DNA of 64,000 nt from Thermoflexus hugenholtzii JAD2 (lineage in GTDB: Bacteria > Chloroflexota > Anaerolineae > Thermoflexales > Thermoflexaceae): positions 1 to 64,000 of the forward strand of contig NZ_FYEK01000020.1 in NCBI RefSeq assembly GCF_900187885.1. The letters run 5' to 3'. The position numbers and the translations under genes are program-made. Below the pieces are notes generated by a model. It ran no database searches, was not told the origin of the DNA, and saw only the letters and a program-made list of their open reading frames with translations. Numbering within the stretch: position 1 is the first letter of the stretch; each line of letters begins with the position of its first letter. Shown here one piece after another: positions 45,532 to 48,551 of this stretch.

Positions 45532-45560
45532 TTGGACAGTATCGGAAGATCTGGTATAAA
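45532..45560 (+). promoter_or_regulatory. Promoter of the fluoride-riboswitch operon
   Basis: TTGGAC (45532-45537), a 17-base spacer and TATAAA (45555-45560, continuing AAT) give a near-consensus promoter. Transcription would begin around 45567, about 15 bases before the riboswitch. Confidence 0.75.
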
Positions 45561-45580
45561 ATAGAAACACAAGAATGAAT

Positions 45581-45649
45581 CCGGTGATGAGGCTCGCCGG
45601 GCGGGGGATCCCCGCGAACTGCCATGCGAGGCATGGCTGATAGCCTCTA
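45581..45649 (+). promoter_or_regulatory. Fluoride riboswitch (crcB motif)
   Basis: The conserved core is present in order: GGTGATGAGGCTCGCC, GAACTGCC, and GGCTGATAGCCTCTA, closely matching the Thermotoga fluoride aptamer. Helices: CCGGTG (45581-45586) with CGCCGG (45595-45600); GCCATGC (45621-45627) with GCATGGC (45631-45637); and long-range GAGGCT (45589-45594) with AGCCTC (45642-45647). An extra hairpin, GCGGGG/CCCCGC at 45601-45615, is inserted between the first two elements. Fluoride binding would hold AGCCTC and prevent the terminator, turning the genes downstream on. Confidence 0.92.
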
Positions 45650-45675
45650 TCCCGAAGCGGGATAGAGGCTTTTTT
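45642..45675 (+). terminator. Fluoride-controlled terminator
   Basis: AGCCTCTATCCCG (45642-45654) pairs perfectly with CGGGATAGAGGCT (45658-45670) around an AAG loop, then TTTTT. Its 5' arm is the same AGCCTC that closes the fluoride aptamer, so the two folds exclude each other. Confidence 0.92.
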
Positions 45676-45691
45676 GTTGGAGGGTGAGCGG

Positions 45692-46453
45692 ATGAGCTGG
45701 GGGCTGGCGGTTTTGCAGCATGCGTTGCGACAGCCGGGCTGCCCGCTGTGTCGTCTGCAGCGGGAGGCGGAGGCGCGTTACCTAGAGAACCTGCTCTGGG
45801 AGAACGTGAACGATCCCGCCACGCGGGAGCAGTGGGCGGCCGGCCTGGGGTTCTGTGCGCGGCACGCCTGGCAGCTGCAACGCCTGGAGGCCCGCCGCTA
45901 CGGGGATGGCCTCGGGAACGCGATCCTCTATGAGGATCTCCTGCAGCGGGTGATCCCCGTCCTGGAGGCGATGGCCCGGGAGCCAGCCATGGATCCGCTC
46001 CCCCTTCACCGGCGGCTGGCTCACGTCCTCCGCCTCCCCCGCTCAGGGGATCCCGAAGGGATCCCCGGCTTGCAGGGGCGGGCGCGCTGTCGGGTGTGCC
46101 GGCTGGGGGAGGAGACCGCGCGGGCGTATGCGGAGTGGCTGGTCGAAGGGCTGGGGGACGCCGAGGTCCGGGCGCGCTACGCGGCTTCGGATGGGCTGTG
46201 CCTGCCTCACCTGCGGATGACCCTGATCTGCGCCCGCACGCGCGCTCCTCAGGCTCTGGCGGATCTGGCCGGCGATGCCGTCCGACGCCTTCAACGCCTG
46301 CTCGGCGCGCTGCGGGAATACATCCGCAAGCACGACTGGAACTATCGCCATGAGCCGATGAGCCCGGAGGAGCGCCGTTCGTGGATCCGGGTGGTCGCCT
46401 TCTTCGTCGGGGAGGGAGAAGGGGATGGTTCGCTGGACGATCGAGGTGGATGA
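45692..46453 (+). CDS. DUF6062-like CxxC protein, first gene behind the fluoride riboswitch
   Basis: A 253-residue soluble protein in two similar halves, each with a CxxC and a distal C..H pair. The first has GCPLCRLQREAEARY then LGFCARHAWQLQRLEARRYG; the second has RCRVCRLGEETARAYAEW then GLCLPHLRMTLICARTRAP. The pattern CPLC...GFC..H resembles DUF6062 proteins of Clostridia. Four cysteine-pair ligands and histidines suggest two bound metal ions, probably zinc. ATG 45692 follows TTGGAGGGTGAGCGG, 17 bases after the terminator. A role in fluoride tolerance is inferred only from the riboswitch. Confidence 0.8.
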   Translation: MSWGLAVLQHALRQPGCPLCRLQREAEARYLENLLWENVNDPATREQWAAGLGFCARHAWQLQRLEARRYGDGLGNAILYEDLLQRVIPVLEAMAREPAMDPLPLHRRLAHVLRLPRSGDPEGIPGLQGRARCRVCRLGEETARAYAEWLVEGLGDAEVRARYAASDGLCLPHLRMTLICARTRAPQALADLAGDAVRRLQRLLGALREYIRKHDWNYRHEPMSPEERRSWIRVVAFFVGEGEGDGSLDDRGG

Positions 46454-46862
46454 GGAGACCGCGCAGCGCTGGCAGGCCCTTTGGGCGTCCCGGGGCCTGA
46501 GCCCCACGGAGGGTTTGCTCTTCTTCCTGGGGCTGGGAGCCGCGTATGCGGAGGGTCAGGCGGTCCTCTCCGGGGTGGCCGCCGGGACCCATTCCGCGGA
46601 GGAGGTAGAGCGCCTGATCCGGCGCCTGGTGGAGCTCGAAGGACGCCACGCGGTGGTGAGGTTCCGGCTGTTTCAATGCGAGCAAGCGCTCCAGCGTTGG
46701 GAGCTCAGCCATGGGGCCATTGAGACCATGAGCACCGGGCTGCAGGAGGTGGTCCGTCGCCTCCGGGAGGAGAACGCCCAGCTTCGCGAGGCCTTGCGCC
46801 GTCTGCAGGGGGACTCGGCGGCCGGGGCAATGGATCCCGGAGGCGGAGTGGGTGGAGCCTGA
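46425..46862 (+). CDS. Small protein with C-terminal coiled coil (fluoride operon, paralogue 1)
   Basis: A 145-residue protein overlapping the preceding gene by 29 bases. The N terminus (VRWTIEVDEETAQRWQALWA, RGLSPTEGLLFFLGLGAAYA) looks like a ribbon-helix-helix-type beta strand plus helices. The C-terminal half is coiled coil (VVRFRLFQCEQALQRWELSH, VVRRLREENAQLREALRRLQ). The gene at 48132-48551 has the same layout and a matching V-x-R-Y/F-R-x-F motif. No family is recognised. It could be a DNA-binding or scaffold protein. Confidence 0.7.
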   Translation: MVRWTIEVDEETAQRWQALWASRGLSPTEGLLFFLGLGAAYAEGQAVLSGVAAGTHSAEEVERLIRRLVELEGRHAVVRFRLFQCEQALQRWELSHGAIETMSTGLQEVVRRLREENAQLREALRRLQGDSAAGAMDPGGGVGGA

Positions 46863-46883
46863 ACGTCCGGCGGGGGGCGCGGG

Positions 46884-47384
46884 ATGGAACGGATCACCCG
46901 GTTCTGTCCGGAGTGCTGGGCGGAGCTGCCTGCAGGGGAGCAGGCGGTTTGCCCGGCCTGTGGGGCTTCCCTGACGGAGGAGCGCGATTTCTTTGAGAAG
47001 CTGCTCCGTGCCCTCTGGCATCCGGAGCGGACCCGGGCGGCGACCGCGGCGGCCGTCCTGGGGCAGCTGGGGGATCCACGGGCGGTGCCGCCTTTGATCG
47101 AGGCGGCCCTCCGCGCCCGGGATTTCGGCGTCCAGGAGGCTGCGGTGCGCAGCCTGGGACGTCTGCGGGATCCGCGGGCGATCCCCGCCCTGGCGTTGCT
47201 GTTGCGGATGGAGAGCCCCCTCCCCGTGCGCCTGGCGGCGGTGAAGGCCCTGGCGGCCTTTGACGATCCTCGAGCGCGGGAAGCCCTGCGGGGCGCGCTG
47301 AACGACCCCTCCGGGGTAGTGCGGCAGGCGGCCCGGGAAGCGTGGAAAGCCGGTTCTCGCCTGGTGAGCCAAGAGGAGGGATGA
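46884..47384 (+). CDS. Zinc-ribbon and HEAT-repeat protein (fluoride operon)
   Basis: A 166-residue protein. An N-terminal zinc ribbon, RFCPECWAELPAGEQAVCPAC, is followed by about four HEAT/PBS-lyase-type repeats: RAATAAAVLGQLGDPRAVPP, VQEAAVRSLGRLRDPRAIPA, VRLAAVKALAAFDDPRAREA and VRQAAREAW. Such repeats bind proteins or chromophore-carrying subunits. Its ribosome site is weak (CGGGGGGCGCGGG). It lies between the coiled-coil protein and pyrophosphatase genes. No enzymatic motif is seen. Confidence 0.75.
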   Translation: MERITRFCPECWAELPAGEQAVCPACGASLTEERDFFEKLLRALWHPERTRAATAAAVLGQLGDPRAVPPLIEAALRARDFGVQEAAVRSLGRLRDPRAIPALALLLRMESPLPVRLAAVKALAAFDDPRAREALRGALNDPSGVVRQAAREAWKAGSRLVSQEEG

Positions 47385-47506
47385 AAGGAGGGCCATCGCA
47401 GCCTGGTTCTCTTCGAGATGAGCGAGCGCCTTGGGTTTCGGAGGGCAGGTAACTGGCCTGAGGATCTCGATCTTTGAAATCTTTTCCATCCGGAGGCAAG
47501 GCAGCG

Positions 47507-48038
47507 ATGAACCTGTGGAAGGATCTTCTGCCCGGACCGGATGTGCCCCATATGATCCATGTGGTGGTGGAGATCCCCAAGGGATCTCGCAATAAATATG
47601 AGTTCGACAAATCGACGGGCATGCTTCGCCTCGATCGAGTTCTTTATTCTCCCCTCCATTATCCGGGAGATTACGGCTTGATTCCTCGGACCCTTTATGA
47701 GGATGGAGATCCCCTGGATGTTCTGGTGATGGTCACGGAGCCGACGTTCCCGGAGTGCATCATCGTGGCGCGGCCCATCGGATTGTTCCGGATGATGGAT
47801 CGGGAGGTGCCGGATGATAAGATCCTGGCGGTCCCTGCCATGGACCCGCTGTTCCAGGATTACCACGATATCTCGGACATTCCCCAACATTTCCTCCGAG
47901 AGGTTGCGCATTTCTTCGCGGTCTACAAGGATCTGGAGGGGGGGGCGGGTGCGGACGCTGGGATGGGAGAACGCGGATCGGGCCAAGGAGCGGATCCTTC
48001 ACGCCGTCCGGCTTTACGCGGCGCGCGAAGGGGAGTGA
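47507..48038 (+). CDS. ppa: Inorganic pyrophosphatase, family I, frame broken in a G8 run
   Basis: Cytoplasmic Mg-dependent enzyme that hydrolyses pyrophosphate and is strongly inhibited by fluoride. Motifs: [40 protein letters not shown] and the active-site [10 protein letters not shown], then [11 protein letters not shown]. The reading frame meets eight G at 47938-47945. Seven would restore the family C terminus, [20 protein letters not shown], ending at 48038 with about 176 residues. As written, the frame instead runs on with unrelated sequence to 48148. This may be a sequencing error, a real mutation or slippage. ATG 47507 follows CGGAGGCAAGG. Membership of the riboswitch operon is probable but there is a 122-base gap before it. 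Confidence 0.85.
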
Positions 48039-48131
48039 AGGACCCCAACCGGTGGAGGCCGCGGCGGGATGATCGCCGGCGGATCTGCTTCCGGGGCCCG
48101 GAACTGAGCCCATTGAGGAGGGAAGGCAGGG

Positions 48132-48551
48132 ATGTTGGAGGATTTTGAGAGGACGTTTTTCCCGGACGCTCGCATCGTCACGCTTTCGATCCCTCTGCTC
48201 TCCGAGACCCTTGAGGAGCTGCATGTCCTGGCGGCTTCTTATGGGCGGAGCCCGGAGGAGATCGCCCGTGTCGCCTTGATCGAGGGCATGAGGTTGCTCG
48301 GCGAGCGAGCGAATCGTGGGCCCCTTGAGGCCTCGGAGGATCCGCAAAGGGATCCGCTGCGGCTTCAAGCGGAGCTTGCCGTCATGCGCTATCGCGCCTT
48401 CACGCTCCTGAAGACGGTGCAGGCCCTGGAGCTGCGGCTCAGCGGTCTGGAGGCCGAGCTTCGGACGTTGCGGGACGCCAACGCGGATCTGCGAGCACGC
48501 CTTCGGGCGTGTGAAGAGGAAAGGACGGATCCCGGCGGCCGGCCCCGTTAA
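48132..48551 (+). CDS. Small protein with C-terminal coiled coil (paralogue 2)
   Basis: A 139-residue protein with the same plan as the one at 46425-46862: an N-terminal strand and helices ([40 protein letters not shown]) and a coiled-coil C terminus ([40 protein letters not shown]). The N-terminal half resembles ribbon-helix-helix regulators. GAGGGAAGGCAGGG precedes ATG 48132. Its stop overlaps the pyrG stop on the other strand by three or four bases. Function unknown. Confidence 0.7.

Follow-up and report, generated by a model that had tools for sequence, protein, structure and literature searches.

A fluoride riboswitch operon in Thermoflexus hugenholtzii led by a DUF6062 gene, a candidate for an unrecognised fluoride-tolerance protein

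In a 64,000-nucleotide stretch of DNA from Thermoflexus hugenholtzii JAD2 (contig NZ_FYEK01000020.1, positions 1 to 64,000; hereafter the window), a fluoride riboswitch stands at the head of a small operon (45532–48551) whose first gene encodes a member of the Pfam family DUF6062. Known fluoride resistance depends mainly on two exporter families, Fluc/CrcB and CLC-F, and neither is encoded in this operon. Behind fluoride switches, DUF6062 genes recur across several phyla, with 13 or more bacterial families represented, and from these sequence data we regard DUF6062 as a strong candidate for a fluoride-tolerance protein that has so far gone unrecognised. The reading of the locus as a whole, a fluoride-induced tolerance operon, is one that we consider likely.

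The aptamer at 45574–45656 is the sole fluoride switch found in a search of the whole genome (3.2 Mb). It scores 31.3 bits against RF01734 (E 5.8e-7 locally, 1.1e-6 genome-wide), which falls short of the Rfam gathering threshold of 34 bits, and at the default cut-off Rfam does not list it, a permissive scan being needed. The score is low because a hairpin of 15–17 nt is inserted between the aptamer stems. The same insert is common to other Thermoflexus switches, which score 34–36 bits (G003, G004, G006, and G008; G, C, and L numbers are our handles for genomes, contigs, and loci), 33.6 bits (G001), and 29 bits (G005), and inserts of other lengths are present in many members of the class. The conserved stems, the loop-to-3′ pseudoknot, and the core letters are all present. 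In a set of 60 distinct aptamers drawn from the class, to which the window's belongs, compensatory changes accompany the pseudoknot, which is paired in 99.2% of cells; slid registers reach 34–63%, and 0 of 1000 shuffles attain the observed pairing. Judged by sequence and covariation, the aptamer is a genuine fluoride-class riboswitch despite its sub-threshold score; its ligand, which we take from knowledge of the riboswitch family, is presumably fluoride bound through magnesium. The terminator hairpin (minimum free energy −23.8 kcal/mol, z −5.9) reuses the 3′ arm of the pseudoknot, making the expression platform an alternative to the aptamer, and this shared arm and the T-run are kept in most of 67 relatives' switches inspected. 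The architecture indicated is that of an ON-type switch, with the fluoride response itself predicted. Two promoter-like sites occur in the riboswitch region, compared with 0.1 in shuffles. An earlier reading made without database searches (the sequence-only reading) had proposed a near-consensus promoter, a crcB-type aptamer, and a mutually exclusive terminator, all of which hold up (Table 1).

Extra hairpins of another kind were also seen. The fluoride riboswitch at 6373–6458 of L071 (G041) has as its hairpin a sequence of 37 nt that resembles a CRISPR repeat (RF01322, 43 bits vs 45), and CRISPR-repeat-like hairpins also lie in fluoride riboswitches at L007 (2310–2346) and L142 (2710–2789).

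Linkage between DUF6062 and fluoride switches was surveyed in 396 genomes of the class, which contain 82 fluoride switches and, in 157 genomes, DUF6062; linkage meant a DUF6062 gene no more than 8 kb downstream of a switch on the same strand, and the strict filters miss weak switches. DUF6062 is linked to 24 of the 82 switches, in 11 families, against an expectation of 0.034, and a 60-genome search added two further families (G020 and G041). These numbers reject chance placement of the switch before DUF6062; confinement of the operon to one genus is likewise rejected, as the linkage extends through 11 families of the class and into other phyla. The sequence-only reading had proposed asking whether the neighbourhood is conserved beyond the riboswitch, and it is. 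Mapped on a tree of 70 DUF6062 proteins, linkage to a switch must have changed 16 times, and well-supported branches force at least 10 of these changes; on this phylogeny the linkage recurs over the whole family and is not the mark of a single clade.

A contig scan for DUF6062 relatives returned 23 loci, 17 of which have a fluoride switch detected either with Rfam or with a motif scan that takes the pseudoknot into account and gave 0 false hits in shuffled sequence totalling 0.9 Mb. This set shares the bias of its query, a 7-member alignment (a 25-member one being too diverse), in favour of the subfamily linked to switches. At five loci where no switch had been scored at first (L122, L130, L143, L146, and L155), the motif scan added one. 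In the Bacillota, DUF6062 lies in fluoride islands at L149 and at L158 (Candidatus Formimonas warabiya, complete genome), the latter with four switches around enolase, DUF6062, antiporter-UspA, a MutS-like pair, and CrcB; in the class of Formimonas, 1 of 43 genomes has DUF6062. A fluoride switch is directly upstream of DUF6062 in the Bipolaricaulota (L152), and a Thermococci metagenome-assembled genome (L155) has a switch, one gene, and then DUF6062. The neighbours of DUF6062 in other phyla are CrcB, enolase, CPA antiporter, UspA, and MutS-like pairs. In L155 (3404–5071), the gene between switch and DUF6062 shows prenyltransferase-like repeats by eye.

The cargo behind 67 inspected switches, a set picked so that all DUF6062 cases are included, comprises DUF6062 (27 loci), zinc-ribbon/HEAT proteins (16), MutS-like pairs (15), CrcB (14), the coiled-coil family (12), one type of major facilitator superfamily (MFS) transporter (12), pyrophosphatase (8), CPA antiporter (7), enolase (4), and CLC-F (3). 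The recurrence of mutS (PMC2864571) and of pyrophosphatase, antiporters, and enolase (PMC11139923) agrees with the cargo known for fluoride riboswitches, as the sequence-only reading had noted for pyrophosphatase. Two further families were seen at fluoride switches. An unnamed one (LRxNLLRICAREPxTIH) is directly behind fluoride riboswitches at L055 2658–3482 (G014, Chloroflexota) and L152 5603–6760 on the minus strand (Bipolaricaulota), and its Chloroflexota member has no Pfam or NCBIfam match; the other, "c5", of about 145 residues, stands at seven fluoride switches in five families (e.g., L089 9188–9628, L088, L084, and L146).

CrcB has no match in the window's genome, by a search that was positive in 10 of 14 controls, and is found in 0 of 9 Thermoflexus genomes, compared with 169 of the 396 genomes of the class. 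The CLC-F profile reaches at most 56 bits in Thermoflexus and at most 85 bits in CrcB-less DUF6062 genomes, compared with about 900 bits in positive controls; no GNNLI-type selectivity motif was found, the Thermoflexus CLC proteins reading GPEDPS where the motif was checked. A CLC on contig C37 was considered as a hidden CLC-F and rejected (56 bits against about 900 in controls, and no GNNLI-type motif). This gene (L002) is the only CLC gene of the genome; its N-terminal frame is disrupted, with an open frame of 491 residues, it adjoins an lgt-like gene (by eye), and longer homologues occur in G001 and G008. A divergent CLC-F is possible in Thermoflexus, as is an unsequenced exporter, because the genomes are drafts. 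CrcB is present in 5 of 22 genomes with switch-linked DUF6062 and in 24 of 48 others (Fisher p 0.039), a difference that is only suggestive because the relatives are not independent.

The DUF6062 protein of the window is a clear family member (63.2 bits against a PF19538 cut-off of 27), and its named relatives at 75–97% identity are from Thermoflexus species (Chloroflexota). The sequence-only reading had described a two-half CxxC protein resembling DUF6062; the halves correspond to two CxxC...CxxH repeats (C17 C20 C55 H58 and C133 C136 C170 H173), both invariant or nearly so in alignments of 25 and 27 members. There is no hydrophobic membrane segment (highest 19-residue mean, 0.97), and the AlphaFold2 model is all-helical and confident (pLDDT 89.2, pTM 0.82). 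Neither a fold search of the PDB with this model nor a sequence search gave a significant match or a relative of known structure, and the best PDB candidates, a prefoldin coiled coil (E 0.018) and a designed protein (E 0.35), were rejected. The protein is predicted from the model to be soluble and all-helical, of a two-site metal-binding type. The two Cys3-His sites fit metal binding, probably of structural zinc, and are uninformative on fluoride chemistry. A role as an exporter is unlikely because the predicted protein is soluble and all-helical with two Cys3-His sites and has no PDB fold match. No paper found in our literature search mentions DUF6062, and the gene list of Baker et al. 2012 may name homologues; the link of DUF6062 to the fluoride riboswitch was not found in the literature searched. 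Queries combining the fluoride riboswitch with MFS exporters, or Thermoflexus with fluoride, returned no title or abstract describing such a system.

Table 1. Features of the fluoride riboswitch operon, in window coordinates
Feature	Position	Strand	Comment
Promoter-like site, sigma-70-type, TTGGAC-N17-TATAAA	45533–45562	+	10/12 consensus matches
Fluoride riboswitch aptamer, RF01734	45574–45656	+	Permissive covariance-model scan; pseudoknot covariation
Aptamer stem	45583–45586 with 45595–45598	+	
Aptamer pseudoknot	45589–45594 with 45642–45647	+	
Extra hairpin between two aptamer stems	45601–45615	+	Same insert in other Thermoflexus switches
Lower hairpin of aptamer	45621–45637	+	
Intrinsic terminator, hairpin 45642–45670 plus T-run	45642–45676	+	5′ arm is the pseudoknot 3′ arm; ON-switch design
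DUF6062 protein, 253 aa	45692–46453	+	Pfam PF19538
Coiled-coil protein 1, 145 aa	46425–46862	+	Paralogue of 48132–48551; 29-base overlap with DUF6062 gene
Zinc-ribbon + HEAT-repeat protein, 166 aa	46884–47384	+	PF13646 3.7e-27, PF03130 2.4e-16, zinc ribbon 3.7e-5
MFS transporter gene remnant	47385–47477	+	Start codon mutated; ~1.19 kb replaced by 66 bp at 47412–47477
Family I inorganic pyrophosphatase	47507–48038	+	PF00719 4.2e-52; +1 frameshift near 47939
Coiled-coil protein 2, 139 aa	48132–48551	+	Last gene of the operon, convergent with pyrG

The products assigned to the remaining genes by the sequence-only reading agree with the Pfam and BLASTP matches. BLASTP (4e-9) shows the pair of coiled-coil proteins to be true paralogues, and they have relatives at other fluoride loci; their N-termini weakly resemble a ribbon-helix-helix pattern (FitA-like_RHH, E 0.15), such a domain being a guess, and the structure model has a low pTM of 0.36. 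The zinc-ribbon/HEAT family is recurrent at fluoride riboswitches, and its gene is itself the first behind six fluoride switches of the fetched set (loci L058, L064, L073, L074, and L093). The pyrophosphatase carries its PF00719 domain in a frame that, as the sequence-only reading had overlooked, is off by one G near the C-terminus: the window has a G8 run and G004 (locus L061) has GGGCGGGC, and the C-terminal residues are encoded in the frame that runs to 48038 (affected region, 47930–48040). Either a true shift or a sequencing error would account for this.

Comparison with other Thermoflexus genomes reveals a further gene. In G004 and G005 the order is switch, DUF6062, coiled coil, zinc-ribbon/HEAT, MFS transporter, pyrophosphatase, and coiled coil; G003 and G006 have the same operon including the MFS gene, with contigs ending earlier, and the operons of G001 and G008 consist of the first three genes only (DUF6062, coiled coil, and zinc-ribbon/HEAT). 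Aligned to G004, the window is 96% identical on both sides of a deletion with joints at window 47411 (G004 4013) and window 47478 (G004 5200), and the gap at 47385–47506 holds a start-codon-less remnant and the 66 unrelated bases in place of the intact 1.2-kb gene of the relatives. Because such closely similar relatives carry the MFS gene, the alignment indicates that the absence of a transporter from the window operon is in part a secondary loss, and because they keep it in the same operon, a transporter may have been part of the operon ancestrally. The description of the operon as lacking an exporter therefore stands for CrcB and CLC-F, neither of which is in the operon or was found in the genome, but misses the lost MFS gene. 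The genome encodes a 49% identical MFS protein on contig C75, whose neighbourhood contains no fluoride-regulon families within the 12 kb inspected. Elsewhere in the window, an S-adenosylmethionine (SAM) riboswitch (RF00162) lies at 27802–27955 (71.6 bits); one of its stems carries a long insert.

We propose that fluoride would enter the cell as hydrogen fluoride (HF) and be bound by the aptamer, that the pseudoknot would then form and block the overlapping terminator, and that DUF6062, the coiled-coil pair, the zinc-ribbon/HEAT protein, and the pyrophosphatase would be transcribed. Within the cytoplasm, DUF6062, together with its HEAT and coiled-coil partners, would shield or restore fluoride-poisoned metal-dependent targets, and pyrophosphatase would be overproduced to outrun its inhibition by fluoride. 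The MFS protein, where an operon has one, probably exports, moving fluoride, HF, or a counter-ion, and has been lost in this genome. For DUF6062, a fluoride-induced metalloprotein that protects cytoplasmic targets is the most likely role, the biochemical step being one that we infer. A more ambitious proposal is that it founds an exporter-independent tolerance, in which a soluble two-site metalloprotein, aided by its zinc-ribbon/HEAT and coiled-coil partners, would neutralise or repair intracellular fluoride damage and allow whole lineages to live with fluoride without CrcB or CLC-F; this we put forward tentatively, with somewhat more doubt than conviction.

Several observations weigh against the protective role. 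DUF6062 does not simply replace an exporter, because some islands hold it beside CrcB; the two occur together in G254, L146, L150, L151, and L158, and DUF6062 occurs together with CLC-F in L122. About 85% of DUF6062 genes in the class survey have no nearby switch, and no fluoride switch was detected for 18 of 20 genes sampled from beyond the linked set, so the functions of the family may extend past fluoride. The linked fraction of about 15%, however, matches the proportion of Fluc channels quoted as riboswitch-controlled (PMC11139923), and because only some 15% of fluoride channels are under such control, a low fraction is no evidence against a fluoride role. The pyrophosphatase frameshift and the loss of the MFS gene could also reflect a decaying operon or an assembly error.

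Decay is part of one alternative, in which the true effector would be the MFS protein, as a transporter of fluoride, HF, or phosphate not yet recognised as such, DUF6062 and the small proteins are helpers, and the window operon, with only its MFS remnant, has degenerated. We think this rather improbable, although the gene is present in the operons of G003, G004, G005, and G006, and the same type stands behind 12 switches in seven families and is the first gene behind the switch in G277 and L157. Linkage is far commoner for DUF6062 than for MFS (27 vs 12 switches in the fetched set), many switches (G001, G008, G039, G057, G137, G152, and G311) have DUF6062 by itself or unaccompanied by MFS, and two of the six other Thermoflexus operons seen (G001 and G008) lack MFS there, as does the window. 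The two invariant Cys3-His sites, and the stress laid on divalent-metal imbalance in the fluoride toxicity literature (PMC11139923), would also suit a DUF6062 that buffers metal-fluorides or metals, removing AlFx or MgFx or keeping metalloenzymes loaded, rather than protecting proteins. The fixed spacing of CxxC...CxxH within helical hairpins nonetheless resembles structural zinc, and none of the acidic clusters usual in complexes of hard metals or fluoride is invariant in the protein; we hold this reading to be unlikely.

DUF6062 and the coiled-coil pair might instead be general-stress regulators or scaffolds that are repeatedly recruited to fluoride regulons without any specific fluoride chemistry. 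That most DUF6062 genes have no nearby switch and that the coiled-coil N-termini look faintly ribbon-helix-helix-like is in keeping with such a role, which we doubt as strongly as metal buffering: the linkage recurs over the DUF6062 tree and several phyla, and fluoride channels themselves are mostly free of riboswitch control. That the switch was merely captured before unrelated genes in one lineage, a notion encouraged by the diversity of genes known behind fluoride switches (PMC2864571), is contradicted by the comparative data and is extremely improbable, given the excess of linked switches over expectation in 11 families and the replicates in Bacillota and Bipolaricaulota.

Relative to fluoride (crcB motif) riboswitch regulons already described, the operon shares the aptamer, pseudoknot, overlapping terminator, and pyrophosphatase cargo, and differs in its lead genes (DUF6062 and small uncharacterised partners), in the extra aptamer hairpin, and in lacking both exporter families, in the operon itself and, as far as our searches show, in the genome as a whole. 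DUF6062 resembles Fluc/CrcB and CLC-F in its riboswitch control and accompanies them in some other genomes, but lacks a transmembrane segment and any sequence or fold relation to them. The Enterobacter cloacae FRM fluoride-resistance operon is likewise multigenic, and the paper on it (PMC5533749) deals with crcB, the fluoride riboswitch, and pyrophosphatase; the window operon differs in having no crcB and in being led by DUF6062. The suggestion of the sequence-only reading that the locus represents an unrecognised route to fluoride tolerance survives in that the first gene belongs to fluoride regulons well beyond the genus, where it is conserved though uncharacterised, and is weakened in that a transporter may once have belonged to the operon; metal or phosphate handling, which that reading gave as an example, would be a conjecture. 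The window protein belongs clearly to Pfam DUF6062 (PF19538), a family without an assigned function. If our interpretation is correct, it would provide the first functional assignment for DUF6062, its partner families, and these MFS transporters, and could yield components for building fluoride-tolerant strains that work on organofluorine compounds. It would also add a new layer of defence against fluoride, a widespread riboswitch-controlled family standing at the head of the fluoride regulon where a genome has neither exporter.

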